In this document: positions 2,456-10,442 of the stretch, piece by piece
Numbering within the stretch: position 1 is the stretch's first letter
How the letters are laid out: every line of letters starts with the position of its first letter
Assembly (NCBI GenBank): GCA_019752115.1
Contig: JAIEMN010000004.1
Location: 124,001-188,000, forward strand
Direction of reading: 5' to 3'
Source of the DNA: Gemmatimonadaceae bacterium
GTDB lineage: Bacteria > Gemmatimonadota > Gemmatimonadetes > Gemmatimonadales > Gemmatimonadaceae
Length of the DNA: 64,000 bases
Program-made: the position numbers and the translations under genes
The notes under the pieces: generated by a model
The model's input: only the letters and a program-made list of their open reading frames with translations
Databases searched by the model: none
Told to the model about the DNA's origin: nothing

Positions 2456-4531
2456 GTGAGTGATCGCGTGCGCAACGACCGCGGCCGGCTGGTCGGCGTC
2501 TGGCGCCGGAGCCTCGTCATGCTGACGGGGCTTTTGGTGTGCGCCACGACCCGCGAGGCCCAGGGACAGATCTCCCCGGGCAAGCTGTCGCGCGCGCACA
2601 CGACGCTCGAAGGCGCGGCCAACTGCGTGCAGTGCCATCCGCTCAATCGCCAGCCGATGGCGCAGGCGTGCCTGAATTGCCACAAGGATGTCCAGACGCT
2701 GATCACCGAGAAGCGCGGCTATCACGGCAAGCTGCCCGCCGGCCAGCGGCTCGAGTGTGCGAGCTGCCACCCCGATCATGCCGGGGTGGAGTTCGAGATG
2801 ATTGCCTGGCCCACCAGCAAGGCGCGGTTCGATCATCGCTCGACGGGCTACGCGCTGGAGGGGAAGCACACGACCACCGAGTGCGAGAAGTGCCACACGG
2901 TGGCCAACAAGAAGGATGCGGTGGCGGCGCTGTCGAAGCGCAAGACCGGCACCCCGTGGGTGGGGATGAGCGCCACGTGCGCCACGTGTCATGCCCGCGA
3001 CGATATCCACGAAGGTGAACTCAAGGGCGGCTGCGACAAGTGCCACGATGCGCGCACGTGGGAGAAGGCGCCCAAGTTCGATCATGACGACGCCCGCTTC
3101 AAGCTCACGGGCAAGCACGAAGACGTGAAGTGCGCCGAGTGCCACGAGACGACCAAGCTGCCGCGCAAGACCAACCCCAAGGGCGAGGTCGTGCCGATCT
3201 TCCGCCCGGTGCCGTTCGCGCGCTGCTCCGATTGCCACGCGGACCCGCACAAGGGGCGTCTCAAGCAGTCGTGCACGAGCTGCCATGAAACGACCGGCTG
3301 GGACGCCATCGACAAACGCGCCTTCAACCACAATGCCACCCGCTACCCGCTGCAGGGGCGGCATGCGCGGGTGAGCTGCGCGGCGTGCCACGGAAAGGAC
3401 AACGAGAAGCCCACACCGGCCTTCGCGACGTGCGCGAGCTGTCATCAGGATGTGCACCGCGGCGAGGCCACCAAGGCGAAAGCGTGCGAAAGCTGCCACG
3501 TGGTGGATGGCTTTGCGCCGGCCACGTTCACGGTGGCCAATCACGCCACGACCAAGTACCCGCTGGAAGGCAAGCACGCCGCGATCGCCTGCGCGAAGTG
3601 CCACACGACCACCGTGGCCACCCCGGGTACGACGACGCCCGGACTCACCGCCAAGTACGTGAAGCTCCAGATGGCGAGCACGAGCTGCACGAGCTGCCAC
3701 CAGGATGTGCACGGCGGCCAGCCGGCCGTGAAGGCTGCGAATACCGGATGCGTGCAGTGCCACACGCTCGAGGGGTTCAAGCCGAGCACGATCACGGTGG
3801 CGGCGCACGCCAAGTTCCGGTTCACGCTGGAGGGCGCGCACGCGAGCGCGACCTGCGCCGCCTGCCATGGCGTGGTCCGCAAAGACCTGCCGGCGCTGAC
3901 CACCCCGGCGGGGACCGCCAAGTTCGTCTTTGCGATGGGCGCCAGTGCGGCGGATACGGCGTGCAGCAGCTGCCATCTCGATCCGCATGCCGGTCGCTAC
4001 GCCCCGGGCGGCGCCCGCGCGAAACTGGGATGCCGCGGCTGCCATGAACTTGCCCGCTTCCGTCCGGCGGCGGTGTCGTTCGCGACGCACGAAAGCTTTG
4101 GATATGCGCTCGATGGCGCGCATCGCGCGGTCGAGTGCGCGCAGTGCCATCAGGAAATGCAAGGCAAGGCGCCGGCGTCGTCGCTCAAACTGGTGAGCAA
4201 GGCGCGGCCACTGCCGTTCGCCGCAGCCAAGACGCGGAGTTGCAGTCAGTGTCACGCCGACGTGCACGCGGCGCAGTTCGCGAAGCGGAAGGATCAGGGC
4301 GCCTGCGACGGGTGTCATGTCACGGATCGCTTCGGTGGTGCGACGCGCTTCGATCACGGCAAGACGAAATTCGCCCTCACGGGTGCGCATTCCCAGGTGC
4401 CGTGTGCGAAGTGTCATGCCGTGACACCCAGTGCCGACCCGACTGCGCCGCTCTCTGCCCGCCGGCAGTACGCTGGCGTATCCACCGCGTGCGAATCCTG
4501 CCACGCCCCCTCTGCCAAAGGCGCGCTATGA
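2456..4531 (+). CDS. Periplasmic multihaem cytochrome c (23 CxxCH)
   Basis: A 691-residue protein starting at GTG 2456, 7 bp after the previous stop. It has an N-terminal hydrophobic export segment (about residues 18-31, then AQGQ). I count 23 CxxCH c-haem attachment motifs from about residue 57 to the C-terminus. Many are preceded by a repeated frame of the type F-x-H....[FY]-x-L-x-G-x-H....C-x-x-C-H, in which the extra histidines are plausible distal ligands, so most haems are likely bis-His and low potential. This is the cytochrome c3/c7-like repeat architecture found in electron-transfer multihaem cytochromes. The stop codon overlaps the ATG of the 49-haem cytochrome (ATGA), implying stoichiometric translation. 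The likely role is a periplasmic electron wire between the inner-membrane module and the outer-membrane cytochrome/porin pair. Direction of electron flow cannot be read from sequence. Confidence 0.9.
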   Translation: MSDRVRNDRGRLVGVWRRSLVMLTGLLVCATTREAQGQISPGKLSRAHTTLEGAANCVQCHPLNRQPMAQACLNCHKDVQTLITEKRGYHGKLPAGQRLECASCHPDHAGVEFEMIAWPTSKARFDHRSTGYALEGKHTTTECEKCHTVANKKDAVAALSKRKTGTPWVGMSATCATCHARDDIHEGELKGGCDKCHDARTWEKAPKFDHDDARFKLTGKHEDVKCAECHETTKLPRKTNPKGEVVPIFRPVPFARCSDCHADPHKGRLKQSCTSCHETTGWDAIDKRAFNHNATRYPLQGRHARVSCAACHGKDNEKPTPAFATCASCHQDVHRGEATKAKACESCHVVDGFAPATFTVANHATTKYPLEGKHAAIACAKCHTTTVATPGTTTPGLTAKYVKLQMASTSCTSCHQDVHGGQPAVKAANTGCVQCHTLEGFKPSTITVAAHAKFRFTLEGAHASATCAACHGVVRKDLPALTTPAGTAKFVFAMGASAADTACSSCHLDPHAGRYAPGGARAKLGCRGCHELARFRPAAVSFATHESFGYALDGAHRAVECAQCHQEMQGKAPASSLKLVSKARPLPFAAAKTRSCSQCHADVHAAQFAKRKDQGACDGCHVTDRFGGATRFDHGKTKFALTGAHSQVPCAKCHAVTPSADPTAPLSARRQYAGVSTACESCHAPSAKGAL

Positions 4532-7500
4532 CGCCGCATCGCTTCCGCCCGTTGCTGGCCGCCGTTGGCCTGCTGAGTGCACTGGCACTCGGTGGGCGGC
4601 CCGCGCACGCGCAGAACGGCCCGCGCCCGCAGACCCCGGCACCCGCCAGCGGTACGGCCGCGAAGGCCGTCAGCTCGGTGACGTCACCGCACGGTGCTAC
4701 CCTGCGCGAGGCGTGCGCGAGTTGCCACCGGGCAGACGGGTGGAAGCCGGCCCGCATCGCGCCGGACTTCAAGCACGCCGCCCAGACGTTCCCCCTCACC
4801 GGCGCGCACGTCCGCACGACGTGCATGAGCTGCCACAAGAGCCTCGACTTCCGCGGCGCGCAGACCTCGTGCGCGTCGTGCCACACCGATACGCACAACG
4901 GCGAGCTGGGCACCACCTGCCAGCGCTGCCACAACACGCGCAGCTTCGTCGATCGCGGCGCCGCGGTGCGGAGCCACGAAGGGTCCCGGTTCCCGCTGCG
5001 CGGTGCGCATGCCCTCGCGACGTGCGAGTCGTGCCATCAGCGCACGGCCCCCGGCCAGCAGCGCTTCCTCGCGCGCAGTGCGACCTGCGCGAGCTGCCAC
5101 ATGGACACGTATCAGGCGACCCGGAGCCCCGCGCACACGGCCGCCAAGTTCAGCACCGATTGCACGAACTGCCACACCATCAGCACGTGGACCGGGGCGA
5201 CGTTCGATCACAACACCACGACCTTCCCGCTCACCGGTCGCCACCTGATGACCACCTGCGCCGGCTGCCACGCCGACAAGGTGTTCACCGGCAAGTCCAA
5301 GGTGTGCAGCAGCTGTCACGCGCCGGATGCGGCCAAGGCCACCGCGCCCAAGCACGATGGCTTCTCCACGGCCTGCGAATCGTGCCATACGACGTCGGGA
5401 TGGCCCGGCGCCAAGTTCGACCATGATCGCATGACGAGCTTTGCGCTGACCGGGGGGCACCGTGCGGCCACCTGCGCGCAGTGTCACGCCGACAAGGTCT
5501 ACAAGGGGAAGCCCACCACCTGCGTGAGCTGCCATCAGACGGACTTCTCGAAGTCCATCAACCCCGACCACGCGGCCGCCAAGCTGCCGACCACCTGCGA
5601 GACGTGCCATACGACCGCGGTGTGGAAGGGCGCCAAGTACGACCACACGAAGACCAAGTTCCCGCTGACCGGCCAGCACGTCGCTGCCACCTGCCTCGCC
5701 TGCCACGCTGACAAGGTGTACGGCGGCAAGGCGATGGCCTGCGCGTCGTGCCACCAGAAGGACGCCACGGCGGCCCGGAACCCGGTGCACACCGGCTTCT
5801 CCACTGCGTGCGAAAGCTGCCACACGACCTCGGCCTGGCAGGGAGCGCGCTTCGACCACAACAGCAGCACGCGCTTTGCGCTCACCGGCGCGCACGAAGG
5901 CGCAAGCTGCGCGCAATGCCACAGCGACGGCGTCTTCAAGGGCAAGCCGATGGCGTGCGTGAGCTGCCATCAGGCCAAGTTCGACGCCGCCGTGAATCCG
6001 AACCATAAGGCGGCCGGCTATCCGACCACCTGCGAAGGCTGCCACAGCACCAGCGCCTGGAAGCCGGGGCTCTTCGATCACAACAGCACACGCTTCCCGC
6101 TCACGGGCGCGCACCTGGCCACGAGCTGCGCGCAGTGCCACGTGAACGGGGTCACGCGCGGCACGCCGATGACCTGCGTGAGCTGCCATCAGACGAAGTA
6201 CGACGCCTCCACGCAGCCGCACCACAAGGAAGCGCGCTTCGGCACCACGTGCGAAACGTGCCATACGACCAGCAAGTGGCTCGGCGCCCAGTGGAGCCAC
6301 AACACCCAGACCAAATTCCCGCTGCTCGGTCGGCACGTGGCGGCGGCGTGCCTCGCGTGCCATAGCGATCGCGTGTACGCCGGGAAGCCGAGCGTGTGCC
6401 AGAGCTGCCATCAGAAGGATGCCGATGCGGCGCTGACCCCGAGCCATCGGGGCTTCCCCACGACGTGCGAAACGTGTCACTCGGTGAATGGCTGGAAGCC
6501 GTCGAGCTTCAGCCATGACAACACGCGCTTCCCACTGCTCGGATCGCACCGCGCGGTATCGTGCGAGAGCTGCCACAAGAACGCGCAGTACGCCGGCACG
6601 CCCTCGAGCTGCGTGAACTGCCATCAGGCGAAGTACGACGCCACCACGAACCCCAATCACCGCGCGTCGAACTTCCCGACGACCTGTGGCGTGTGCCACA
6701 ACCCCACGTCGTGGAAGCCCGCGAGCTTCGATCACAACCTGACGCGCTTCCCGCTCACCGGCAGTCATCGCCCGGTGGCGTGCGAAAGCTGCCACAAGAA
6801 CGGGCAGTACACGGGCACGCCCACCGCGTGTGCGAGTTGCCATCAGGCCAAGTTCGACGCGACCACGAACCCGAACCACAAGACGGCCGGGTTCACCACC
6901 ACGTGTCAGCAGTGCCACACGACAACCGCGTGGACGCCGGCGACGTTCGATCACAACCTGACCAAGTTCCCGCTCACGGGGAGCCACAAGACGGTGACGT
7001 GTCTCGCCTGCCACAAGACGGGCACGTATACCGGCACGCCGAGCAGCTGCGCGAGCTGCCATCAGGCCAAGTTCGACGCGACCACGAATCCGAATCACAA
7101 GACGGCCGGGTTCCCGACCACGTGCCAGCAGTGCCACACGACGACGGCGTGGACGCCCGCCACCTTCGACCACAACACCACGGCGTTCCCGCTGACGGGG
7201 GCGCACCGGACCGTGGTGTGCCTCTCGTGCCACAAGAACGCGGTGTACGCCGGCACCCCGAAGGAATGCATCGGGTGTCATCAGGCCAGGTTCGACGCGA
7301 CCACGAATCCGAACCACAAGGCGGGCGGCTTCCCCACGGTCTGCCAGAGCTGCCATACGACGACCGCCTGGACGCCCTCGAGCTTTGACCACAACGCCAC
7401 CGCGTTCCCGCTCACGGGGCTGCACAAGACCACGAGCTGCCAGGGCTGCCACGGCGACGGCGTGTTCAAGGGCAAGACCACGCTGTGCAGCGGCTGTCAC

Positions 7501-8259
7501 CTGACCAAGTACAATGCCACCGCGAAGCCCGCGCACCAGAGCAACGGCATCGGGACGAGCTGCCAGACCTGCCACACCACCAATGGCTGGACGCCGGCGA
7601 CCTACGACCACAGCGTGACGCGCTTCCCGCTCGCCGGGGCGCATCGCGCCGTAAGCTGCGCCGGCTGCCACGGCGATGGCGTGTACCGCGGCAAGTCGAT
7701 GGCCTGCGCGTCGTGCCACCTGCCCAAGTACAACGCCACGACCAAGCCGCCGCATGCGAGCAACGGCATCGGGACGACGTGTGAGACCTGCCACACGGTG
7801 AATGCGTGGACGCCGGCGACCTATGATCACAGCGTCACCGCCTTCCCGCTCACTGGCGCCCACAAGACGGTGGCCTGTGCCCAGTGCCACGGCACCGGCG
7901 TGTATCGCGGCACCTCCAAGATCTGCTCGTCGTGTCACCTGCCGGCCTTCAACGCCACGACGAATCCGAATCACAAGACGGCCATGTTCCCGACGACGTG
8001 TGAGACCTGCCACACGACGACGGCCTGGCTGGGCGCCAAGTTCGCGCACGATCCGTGGTTCCCGATCTACTCGGGGGCGCACCTCGGGCGCTGGAACAGC
8101 TGCACGCAGTGTCACGCGAACAACGCGAACTACAAGGAATTCACCTGCCTGACCTGCCACCTGAAGACCAAGACGGATCAGCAGCATGTGGGTCGCGCGG
8201 GCTACAGCTACAGCAGCCCGGCGTGCTACAGCTGCCATCCGCGCGGGAAGGCGGGATGA
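4528..8259 (+). CDS. Giant repetitive multihaem cytochrome c (49 CxxCH)
   Basis: A 1243-residue protein starting at ATG 4528, which overlaps the previous stop. The same open frame extends upstream, but that part antisense-shadows the previous gene, and a clear signal peptide begins here and ends ...RPAHA before QNG (about residue 28). I count 49 CxxCH motifs arranged as 16 triplets plus one terminal motif. From about the seventh motif on, the protein is built of 14 tandem modules, typically 73 residues each: CxxCH, 27 residues containing FDHN-x-T-x-FPLTG-x-H, CxxCH, 11 residues containing YxGTP or YxGK, CxxCH, then about 20 residues containing AKFDATTNPNHK. The conserved non-motif histidines supply candidate distal ligands. 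Adjacent modules at 6840-7320 are near-identical in DNA, so the gene has grown by recent duplication. It overlaps the outer-membrane barrel gene by 4 bp. I infer an outer-membrane or extracellular conductive cytochrome. No membrane anchor is seen. Confidence 0.92.
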   Translation: MTPHRFRPLLAAVGLLSALALGGRPAHAQNGPRPQTPAPASGTAAKAVSSVTSPHGATLREACASCHRADGWKPARIAPDFKHAAQTFPLTGAHVRTTCMSCHKSLDFRGAQTSCASCHTDTHNGELGTTCQRCHNTRSFVDRGAAVRSHEGSRFPLRGAHALATCESCHQRTAPGQQRFLARSATCASCHMDTYQATRSPAHTAAKFSTDCTNCHTISTWTGATFDHNTTTFPLTGRHLMTTCAGCHADKVFTGKSKVCSSCHAPDAAKATAPKHDGFSTACESCHTTSGWPGAKFDHDRMTSFALTGGHRAATCAQCHADKVYKGKPTTCVSCHQTDFSKSINPDHAAAKLPTTCETCHTTAVWKGAKYDHTKTKFPLTGQHVAATCLACHADKVYGGKAMACASCHQKDATAARNPVHTGFSTACESCHTTSAWQGARFDHNSSTRFALTGAHEGASCAQCHSDGVFKGKPMACVSCHQAKFDAAVNPNHKAAGYPTTCEGCHSTSAWKPGLFDHNSTRFPLTGAHLATSCAQCHVNGVTRGTPMTCVSCHQTKYDASTQPHHKEARFGTTCETCHTTSKWLGAQWSHNTQTKFPLLGRHVAAACLACHSDRVYAGKPSVCQSCHQKDADAALTPSHRGFPTTCETCHSVNGWKPSSFSHDNTRFPLLGSHRAVSCESCHKNAQYAGTPSSCVNCHQAKYDATTNPNHRASNFPTTCGVCHNPTSWKPASFDHNLTRFPLTGSHRPVACESCHKNGQYTGTPTACASCHQAKFDATTNPNHKTAGFTTTCQQCHTTTAWTPATFDHNLTKFPLTGSHKTVTCLACHKTGTYTGTPSSCASCHQAKFDATTNPNHKTAGFPTTCQQCHTTTAWTPATFDHNTTAFPLTGAHRTVVCLSCHKNAVYAGTPKECIGCHQARFDATTNPNHKAGGFPTVCQSCHTTTAWTPSSFDHNATAFPLTGLHKTTSCQGCHGDGVFKGKTTLCSGCHLTKYNATAKPAHQSNGIGTSCQTCHTTNGWTPATYDHSVTRFPLAGAHRAVSCAGCHGDGVYRGKSMACASCHLPKYNATTKPPHASNGIGTTCETCHTVNAWTPATYDHSVTAFPLTGAHKTVACAQCHGTGVYRGTSKICSSCHLPAFNATTNPNHKTAMFPTTCETCHTTTAWLGAKFAHDPWFPIYSGAHLGRWNSCTQCHANNANYKEFTCLTCHLKTKTDQQHVGRAGYSYSSPACYSCHPRGKAG
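6474..7983 (+). repeat. ~219-bp tandem repeats inside the 49-haem cytochrome gene
   Basis: Imperfect tandem repeats of about 219 bp (73 codons, three CxxCH motifs each). The closest copies are around 6835-7280, where the stretch encoding QAKFDATTNPNHKTAGF recurs with only a few synonymous changes. The same period continues, more diverged, to both sides (about 5150-8030). Boundaries given are approximate. Confidence 0.8.
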
Positions 8260-9998
8260 GACACCCCACGGCGCTCGCGCTGTTCGCCGTGCTGGCGACG
8301 CAGGCCGCCGGTGCCCAATCGGCGCAACCGCCGGTGAAGGCCCCGGTGCGTCGGCCCACCACCACGCGCCCGACCACGCCGGCGAAGCCCGCGCCCAAGT
8401 CGGCGGCGGCGGCGACCACGAGCGATTCCACCAAGCCGGCGGCAGCGCCGGCCGCGCCATCGCCCTACCGCTGGGTGCACGTCACCTATCTGAGTGGCGA
8501 ATCGATCTATCTCGATGGCGGCACGACGCAGGGGCTGCAGGAAAAGTCGGCGGTGCAGATCGTCCGCAAGGATTCGGTCGTGGCCACGGTCGAGGTGCAA
8601 TACGTCTCCTCGACGCGGGCAGCGGGCAAGGCGCGCGCCGGAAGCGCGGCGATCGTCGTCGGCGACAGCGGGCGCTTCCTGCCGTCGTTCGCCGTAGCGT
8701 CCGCGCCGACCGGCGATACCGCTGCGCGCGCCGCGGGCAGCCAGACCACCAGCTCGACGTCGATTCTCGCGCCGGTGAGCACGCCAAAGCGGCGCGGCCC
8801 GCGCACGATGAACGCGCGCCTCGGCGTGCGCTATCTCACGATGCAGAACGGCACGAGCGCCAGCGGGCGTATCACGCAGCCCGCGTTCGACGTGCGCCTC
8901 GAAGGCCACCGCATCGGTCAGTCGGCGTTCGGCCTGCTGGTGGACGCGCGCGCGCATCAGCAGCGTTCGGGCTCCGGCCTCGTGGACAACAGCACCCGCG
9001 TGTATCAGTCGGCGATCGAGTACCAGACCGCCGGGACCTCGCCGAGCCGCGTGACGATGGGGCGCCAGCTCTCCAAGGTCCTGTCTCCCGTCGGGTTCTT
9101 TGATGGCGTGTCGATGGACTTTGACAACGCCCACTGGAAGTACGGCGCGATTGCCGGCACGCAGCCCGATCAGGTGAAGTTCATGCCGGCCGCCGACATC
9201 CGCGAAGCCGGCGCGTATCTGCAATGGCACAACGCCCCCGGTACACGGGGCATGTATCAGGCGACCGTGGGCGGGGTGGGGTCGTATGGCGTGGACGGCG
9301 TGAACCGCGAGTTCCTGCTGCTCAACACGCTCATCGTGAACCCCATCATCAGCATCTACGCCACCCAGGAAGTCGATCTCAATCGCGGCTGGAAGCTCAC
9401 CGCGGAGAAGAACAAGCCGCTCACCTGGTCGAGCACCTTCGCCACGGCCCGCGTCTCGGTTACGCGAGGGCTCTCGCTCAACGCCGGGTACGACAGCCGG
9501 CGGAATGTCCGCCTCTATCGCGACTTCATCACGCCCGACGTCGCCTTCGACGATGCCCTGCGTCGCGGCTACTTTGGCGGCGCGTCGGTGAGCCTGCCCC
9601 ACTTCTACGCCAACGCCGACACGCGCGTGAGCGATGGCACGACCGTGGGCAAGAGCACCTCGAACACGGCGTCGATGACCGTCTCACGGCTGACGCCACT
9701 GGGGATCTCGCTGCGCGCCCGTGGCACGCAGTACAACGGCCCGACGGTCAGTGGCCAGCTGTATTCGGGCTCCTTCGAACTCTCCCCGCGTGGGCTGTTC
9801 CGCCTTGAGGCCAGCGCCGGTCAGCGCACCGACACGCGTGGAGCGGTGGACTTTGGCGCCACCAAGTCCACCTGGATTGGTGTGGACGCCGATGCGGGCA
9901 TTGGCCGGTCGTGGTACCTCATGGGCTCGTTCTATCGCGAGCACGGTCAGGTGGACCGCGTGCTCCAGGAATACGTCGGCCTCAGCTGGCGCTACTAG
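8256..9998 (+). CDS. Outer-membrane beta-barrel protein of the multihaem cytochrome cluster
   Basis: A 580-residue protein starting at ATG 8256, overlapping the stop of the 49-haem cytochrome (ATGA). A signal peptide (residues 1-21, ending AAGA before QSA) is followed by a Pro/Ala/Thr/Lys-rich linker to about residue 70. A small beta-rich periplasmic domain follows (about 70-150). From about residue 185 to the end there is a long series of amphipathic strands with alternating polarity, aromatic girdle residues and a final strand ending in Trp-Arg-Tyr. A C-terminal aromatic residue is the usual outer-membrane barrel (BAM) signal. It contains no CxxCH motif. Its position directly after two multihaem cytochromes makes it the best candidate for the pore partner of a porin-cytochrome conduit, analogous in role to MtrB/PioB. 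I see no clear sequence motif that ties it to that family. Confidence 0.8.
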   Translation: MRHPTALALFAVLATQAAGAQSAQPPVKAPVRRPTTTRPTTPAKPAPKSAAAATTSDSTKPAAAPAAPSPYRWVHVTYLSGESIYLDGGTTQGLQEKSAVQIVRKDSVVATVEVQYVSSTRAAGKARAGSAAIVVGDSGRFLPSFAVASAPTGDTAARAAGSQTTSSTSILAPVSTPKRRGPRTMNARLGVRYLTMQNGTSASGRITQPAFDVRLEGHRIGQSAFGLLVDARAHQQRSGSGLVDNSTRVYQSAIEYQTAGTSPSRVTMGRQLSKVLSPVGFFDGVSMDFDNAHWKYGAIAGTQPDQVKFMPAADIREAGAYLQWHNAPGTRGMYQATVGGVGSYGVDGVNREFLLLNTLIVNPIISIYATQEVDLNRGWKLTAEKNKPLTWSSTFATARVSVTRGLSLNAGYDSRRNVRLYRDFITPDVAFDDALRRGYFGGASVSLPHFYANADTRVSDGTTVGKSTSNTASMTVSRLTPLGISLRARGTQYNGPTVSGQLYSGSFELSPRGLFRLEASAGQRTDTRGAVDFGATKSTWIGVDADAGIGRSWYLMGSFYREHGQVDRVLQEYVGLSWRY

Positions 9999-10022: not shown

Positions 10023-10442
10023 ATGACTGCACGACTGCTGCTTTCGCTGAGCGCGGTGGCCCTGCTGGCTGCCTGCGCAGATGACGACACCAAGGGGCGC
10101 ACGCCGCTCGCGGAGGGCGCCATGCCACCGGCGGCCGGGAGCGCGAACGCGGCGCCCGCCGGTCCGCCGCCGGGGATGACGGTCAAGTCCGCCGCCCTGC
10201 TCGACAGCGGCAACGTCGCCTTCCGGCTCAAGCAGTATCCGGTCGCGCAGGCGTACTACGAGAAGGCCGCCGCCGAGGTCCCCGATCAGGCCGCGCCGTG
10301 GTACGGCGTGTACATGGTGGCGCAGGCGATCAAGAACCAATCCCTCGCCGACAGCGCCATGAAGATGGTGAGCACGCGCGCCGGCGGTGGGGACCTGATG
10401 GGATCACCGATGGGCAAGGCCCACGAGAAGCCAAAGCCCTAG
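10023..10442 (+). CDS. Small TPR-like lipoprotein
   Basis: A 139-residue protein with a clear lipobox, LLAAC, giving lipidation at Cys18. A low-complexity Pro/Ala/Gly stretch runs to about residue 55. After it comes one or two TPR-like helical hairpins (about 58-105, including the frame GNVAFRLKQYPVAQAYYEKAAAE). It starts 24 bp after the barrel gene and is probably the last gene of the electron-transfer operon. A scaffold or assembly role for the envelope complex is plausible but only inferred from position. Its stop codon overlaps the stop of recD on the other strand (10439-10442). Confidence 0.75.
   Translation: MTARLLLSLSAVALLAACADDDTKGRTPLAEGAMPPAAGSANAAPAGPPPGMTVKSAALLDSGNVAFRLKQYPVAQAYYEKAAAEVPDQAAPWYGVYMVAQAIKNQSLADSAMKMVSTRAGGGDLMGSPMGKAHEKPKP

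Follow-up and report, generated by a model that had tools for sequence, protein, structure and literature searches.

What could a single protein with 49 haem-binding motifs be for, and with which partners would it work? The question is raised by a 64,000-nucleotide stretch of the genome of a Gemmatimonadaceae bacterium (GCA_019752115.1, contig JAIEMN010000004.1, positions 124,001 to 188,000 of the forward strand). This whole stretch is the window, and coordinates are counted from its first letter unless another record is named. An earlier sequence-only reading had proposed that the gene at 4528-8259 encodes a nanowire-like cytochrome, but it lacked the decisive context, namely that the gene belongs to a cluster of the porin-cytochrome complex type known as PCC3. 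In our assessment the 49-haem protein is probably the extracellular cytochrome of such a conduit, with its modules serving as interchangeable lengths. This assessment follows from five collinear genes with ATGA overlaps, the motifs of the inner-membrane protein (IMP), a gene order also indicated for a proteobacterium, and the recurrence of the set in relatives and on a plasmid. It draws equally on a predicted 22-strand barrel, a contrast in haem number between the two cytochromes (23 vs 15-49 in 14 clusters), invariant motifs and histidines in the modules, profile matches to the cytochromes GSU1996 and HmcA, the cytochrome c assembly genes of the host, and haem density. Haem numbers of the sequences analysed here are counts of CxxCH motifs.

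A gene cluster of the PCC3 type

PCC3 is a porin-cytochrome complex with an IMP that carries two WX3HX13H motifs and SGXXG, and that has been likened to the di-haem-b ferric-reductase domain (He et al. 2017, PMC5566968). It is described as four genes (PMC12442390) and is known chiefly from Proteobacteria, including iron oxidisers. In Sideroxydans lithotrophicus ES-1, the locus tags Slit_1446 (IMP), 1447, 1448 and 1449 (porin) indicate the order IMP, periplasmic multihaem cytochrome (pMHC), extracellular multihaem cytochrome (eMHC), porin (PMC12016527, PMC8788666). In the window, five collinear genes form an operon-like set, of which the 49-haem gene is the fourth:

7-933, + strand: IMP of the PCC3 type, 308 residues, SGVVG flanked by two WX3HX13H motifs (from motifs and hydrophobic segments)
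940-2448, + strand: membrane-anchored flavoprotein with an N-terminal transmembrane segment, two 4Fe-4S sites and a flavin adenine dinucleotide (FAD)/NAD(P) domain, YpdA/TrxB-like (Pfam Fer4; Pyr_redox_3, 1.2e-43)
2456-4531, + strand: putative periplasmic 23-haem cytochrome, the pMHC (23 CxxCH; Cytochrome_C7, 3.9e-29)
4528-8259, + strand: putative extracellular 49-haem cytochrome, the eMHC, 1243 residues (49 CxxCH; Pfam Cytochrome_C7, 5.9e-51)
8256-9998, + strand: outer-membrane beta-barrel, porin-like, 580 residues, 22 predicted strands at residues 184-579, C-terminal Tyr (AlphaFold 2 model, predicted local distance difference test score (pLDDT) 71.8)

All four component types of PCC3 can be recognised, in the order of Slit_1446-1449. 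The IMP of PCC3 has about 300 residues, and the one found here has 308 with every motif in place (WLDVHVTTALGLPLLLTIH, reading WLDVH..H; WHIAHMPFALTALIAVTVH, reading WHIAH..H; and SGVVG). Five transmembrane helices are expected of a PCC3 IMP, and a simple hydropathy scan places hydrophobic segments here at about residues 28-56, 70-98, 113-131, 129-162 and 276-308, consistent with five helices but with a weak segment at 113-131. The pMHC, with 23 haems, falls within the PCC3 span of about 21-27, its periplasmic location being putative, and the eMHC, likewise of putative location, has the very many haems and the repeats (49 haems, 13 modules) of its PCC3 counterparts. The stop codon of the pMHC gene overlaps the start of the eMHC gene in an ATGA, as does the eMHC stop with the barrel start. 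Foldseek matches of the barrel are to outer-membrane barrels (ushers, OprD-type porins), and a Pfam search gave it no match; as a 22-strand predicted barrel adjoining the cytochrome genes, it stands where the PCC3 porin does. Also shared with PCC3 are repeats rich in Thr, Ala, Ser and Gly, an extracellular haem number that varies more than the periplasmic one, and a high haem density, at about 25 residues per haem here and a PCC3 median of 26 (PMC5566968). Since extracellular cytochromes of PCC3 reach 63 and 85 haems (PMC5566968), 49 is no record. Genes for cytochrome c assembly are present in the host genome.

The set differs from PCC3 in its fifth gene, the Fer4/FAD flavoprotein, for which the NCBIfam YpdA-like model scores under its cut-off. 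In most loci a gene of this kind adjoins the cluster, either between the IMP and pMHC genes, divergently upstream, or 3' of the porin gene. In one Planctomycetota metagenome-assembled genome (MAG), the Fer4/FAD protein is fused to a PCC3-type IMP in a single protein of 789 residues (L024, 3463-5832). Ferredoxin-NADP reductase genes have been reported near other, decahaem porin-cytochrome complexes in a 2026 metagenome paper (PMC13264449), so the association of a flavoprotein with such complexes is not wholly new. The flavoprotein suggests a link of the conduit to NAD(P)H or ferredoxin, in one direction or the other.

Build of the 49-haem cytochrome

The open reading frame and its 49 CxxCH motifs are as the sequence-only reading had them, and no cysteine lies outside such a motif. 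The parts of the protein can be laid out as follows:

4528-4614, + strand: signal peptide, about residues 1-29, no lipobox seen (read from the sequence)
4714-5160, + strand: N-cap, 6 haems with irregular gaps of 36-16-16-35-21-25 (gaps identical in close relatives)
5161-7998, + strand: 13 tandem tri-haem modules of 71-74 residues, each with three CxxCH and three extra His (from motif spacing)
7999-8256, + strand: C-cap, the last 4 haems with gaps of 34-15-26, ending in CYSCHPRGKAG (conserved to Emticicia)

The motifs had been described as 16 regular triplets plus one, with fourteen modules at a period of about 73 residues. The arithmetic holds (49 = 16x3+1), as does the period, which appears as an autocorrelation peak at 73 residues (36% identity); the regular triplets, however, number 13, spanning residues 212-1157 with gaps of 32-33/16/23-25, and the remaining haems belong to the two caps. 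In each of the 13 modules the three extra histidines stand at fixed offsets. Conservation was assessed in windows of four modules, 89 in all, drawn from 18 stretches of gene sequence that include the 49-haem gene itself, and every CxxCH and all three extra histidines per module are invariant in 89 of 89; the pattern is for this reason far beyond chance, as judged from the sequences. The protein has 52 histidines outside the motifs, and subtraction of H4 and H27 (leader) and one of HH565/566 leaves 49, or one per haem. Because the three extra histidines per module are invariant, we infer all-bis-His ligation, for which these positionally consistent residues would suffice at every haem.

Family matches point to the cytochrome c3/c7 superfamily. 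The protein scores 170.6 bits against Pfam Cytochrome_C7 (PF14522), and a profile of its modules matches GSU1996 (PDB 3ov0; E 1.2e-4, over 4-281, most of its length) and the 16-haem HmcA (1z1n; 6.6e-7). Other scores lie under their cut-offs: NCBIfam TIGR04257 nanowire_3heme reaches 34.2 bits (cut-off 40), NCBIfam HmcA 90 (cut-off 400), and the DmsE-family decahaem models 65-71 (cut-off 192), while PF22678 (NrfB-like) gave no match. The only hit of a single-sequence phmmer search of the PDB, to the MAS5 zinc-finger chaperone, was discarded as a chance match. HmcA shares matches to the Pfam families Cytochrome_C7 and Cytochrom_CIII, but it is part of a complex for sulfate respiration and lacks a tandem array of this kind. 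MtrCAB and MtoAB follow the same logic of a porin with multihaem cytochromes, to which the weak DmsE-family matches correspond, but their subunits have 10 haems and the scores are far under the cut-off.

Relatives, haem counts and module turnover

Relatives were searched for in 395 sampled genomes of the host's phylum, 51 of which hold one, and further relatives come from Acidobacteria and Planctomycetota MAGs and from plasmid pEMTOL02 of Emticicia oligotrophica DSM 17448 (Bacteroidota), Emticicia being all that a plasmid search gave. On this plasmid (NC_018749.1; L100, 11938-20634), the five genes are found with their order kept. The set there comprises an IMP, an NAD(P)-binding protein, 23-haem and 40-haem cytochromes and a barrel-sized hypothetical protein, and lies directly 3' of the cytochrome c biogenesis gene ccsA.

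Haem numbers were compared in 26 clusters in which both cytochromes are complete. Of these, 14, from three phyla that take in Bacteroidota and Planctomycetota, have an inner cytochrome of 23 haems; in another ten it has 17, and in the remaining two 18 or 19. In the 14 clusters with a 23-haem inner cytochrome, the outer one has 15, 19, 24, 30, 31, 31, 34, 40 (four times), 43, 43 or 49 haems. Of the 27 complete outer cytochromes that come from Planctomycetota or the host's phylum, 21 have counts of the form 10+3n, a consequence of fixed caps joined to tri-haem modules; the binomial p is 3e-6 for an expectation of one third, with species that are not independent. In the exceptions a cap motif seems to have been lost, the N-cap to be shortened, or the cap to be of a variant kind. 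The PCC3 clusters of Gallionellaceae differ here, with 10-18 or 26-35 motifs and no three-haem step in their extracellular cytochromes, and 21, 24 or 27 haems in the periplasmic one (PMC10734462).

Several other cytochrome genes came to light in this survey. In two genomes (G089, L059; G375, L065), the outer cytochrome is broken within its modules into two overlapping frames (16+30 haems in the one genome and 37+9 in the other, for a total of 46 each), either by sequencing error or by a real frameshift. More distant relatives (L070, L071, L072, L088) have a second module type, of 76 residues with a spacing of about 34-21-21 as against 32-16-25, which in L070-L072 is paired with inner cytochromes of 17-18 haems. 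The host genome itself contains a nine-haem protein with a pMHC-like start and an eMHC-like C-cap spacing of 31-15-27 (L097, 5934-6875, - strand). It also contains a second porin-cytochrome-like cluster (L095, contig C45, 4158-18678), with Cytochrom_C_asm matches at about 5-7 kb, an 8-haem protein, a 17-haem protein with a NapC-like N-terminus, a reading frame of 529 residues, a 16-haem protein and then a frame resembling a [NiFe]-hydrogenase small-subunit leader. In the window, one further gene adjoins the porin gene, its association with the cluster being uncertain:

10023-10442, + strand: small putative lipoprotein (a homologue lies beside the porin gene in genome G010, L094)

The sequence-only reading had also held that the length of the array can change by recombination. 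Comparison of the sequences supports whole-module gain and loss by recombination for the cytochrome family, on evolutionary time and between relatives, because relatives carry 1-13 modules, outer genes of the same genus differ by two whole modules (40 vs 34 and 30 vs 24 haems), and some relatives contain modules with 90-100% DNA identity. For example, modules 9 and 11 of G375 are 100% identical, and the values in G077 and G113 are 96% and 94%. In many cases the step between such high-identity copies is two modules, pointing to duplication of modules in pairs. Within genus g10 the internal modules are collinear (all 7 of the reciprocal-best pairs of G222 and G242), but between genera collinearity is close to the shuffled expectation for most pairs. 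Mean identities do not support a better conservation of the caps, as a group, than of the internal modules (57-61, against 61 for the best internal matches), and therefore collinearity alone was used. In G010 the outer cytochrome has at least 46 haems, against 49 here, with one module fewer in its second half and the gene split over two contigs.

In the 49-haem gene itself, the near-identical neighbouring copies that had been reported are ruled out. Module pairs have 53-78% DNA identity, neighbours reach at most 76-78% (best for m8/m9 and m9/m10), and the longest exact match found by a repeat search of the gene is short:

6838-6869, + strand: longest exact repeat, 32 bp, copy 1 (copy 2 at 7057-7088)

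These values also bear on the module count, which might be an artefact of assembly. The host genome (5.17 Mb, 97% complete) is in 83 contigs, and the counterpart gene of G010 is broken at a contig boundary; but a 32-bp repeat is far under the usual read length, the gene lies within a 257-kb contig, and a 40-haem relative stands on a plasmid record titled complete. With module identity so low and exact repeats so short, repeat collapse is unlikely, and we give an artefactual count almost no credence.

Alternatives, proposed working and meaning

The protein could instead be a periplasmic electron store, or capacitor, as described for GSU1996-type proteins (PMC10138318). The crystallised dodecahaem GSU1996 and the 27-haem GSU2210, both of Geobacter, follow the same nanowire-of-haems design, in which c7-type tri-haem domains follow one another in one polypeptide (the domain build being described for GSU1996), and the module profile match extends along most of GSU1996; moreover, the signal peptide of the 49-haem protein has no lipobox. 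GSU1996 has four c7 domains with one His-Met haem each and haems 3-5 A apart (PMC10138318), while here there are 13 modules with another haem spacing, three invariant extra histidines and a Met content of 0.8%, a pattern at odds with one His-Met haem per domain. The setting, however, is that of a conduit: the neighbours on either side, both overlapped by the gene, encode a second large cytochrome and a predicted outer-membrane barrel, this order is retained in other phyla, and the 23-haem partner is already a fixed-length periplasmic candidate. We therefore regard a storage role as unlikely. The very high haem density and elongated repeat design might also fit a subunit that polymerises into micrometre filaments, like OmcS, OmcE or OmcZ. 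A PDB sequence search gave no match to the filament cytochromes, the array provides length by itself, and it is encoded with the partners of an outer-membrane conduit, so that a filament is highly improbable. Of the readings considered, a tandem tri-haem array serving as a wire fits best.

Some points weigh against the conduit. The assignment to PCC3 is a likeness of motifs, gene content and gene order, as distinct from a direct comparison with proteobacterial PCC3 sequences, and the extracellular placement comes from gene order and analogy. Experimental proof of any PCC3 function was not found in the PCC3 literature surveyed, and in cells grown on Fe(II) both PCC3 clusters of ES-1 were down-regulated (PMC8788666). 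An AlphaFold 2 model of four modules, with haems left out, reached only a pLDDT of 72 and a predicted template modelling score of 0.40, and Foldseek found no match for it in the PDB, a result probably explained by the scarcity of secondary structure in haem proteins of this kind.

If the conduit reading is right, the Fer4/FAD protein and the di-haem-b IMP would trade electrons with cytoplasmic NAD(P)H or ferredoxin, with the quinone pool, or with both. The 23-haem cytochrome would link across the periplasm to the outer membrane, which would be crossed through the 22-strand porin, and the 49-haem chain of c7-like modules would carry the haem path outside to a mineral, an electrode, a humic substance or a partner cell. 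Haem attachment, linear stacking and the flow and direction of electrons are presumed in this scheme, as are bis-His ligation and the extracellular position. The caps may be fixed connectors, and unequal recombination would add or remove modules between them, so that the haem number follows 10+3n. MtrA extends about 100 A for 10 haems (PMC5566968), and by analogy 23 haems might reach about 23 nm, comparable to the periplasm, and 49 haems about 49 nm.

New here are the spread of the system, the contrast between a fixed 23 and a variable 10+3n, the support for turnover of modules, and a flavoprotein that recurs with the cluster. Tentatively, these could be aspects of one PCC3-type wire found in several phyla, with its periplasmic span locked at 23 haems, its outer array varied by module recombination, and a dedicated ferredoxin/FAD charger allowing NAD(P)H or ferredoxin to exchange electrons with the outside while bypassing quinones. 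The PCC3 architecture, with its recurrent fifth gene, is extended to the host's phylum, Bacteroidota, Planctomycetota and in part Acidobacteriota. The culture-collection strain Emticicia oligotrophica DSM 17448, which has the set on a plasmid, is suited to its study, and the relatives, with 1-13 modules between fixed caps, offer a natural length series for relating haem-chain length to current. A fixed inner cytochrome beside a variable outer one hints at a division of roles, in which the first bridges a constant distance and the second determines how far the chain reaches.

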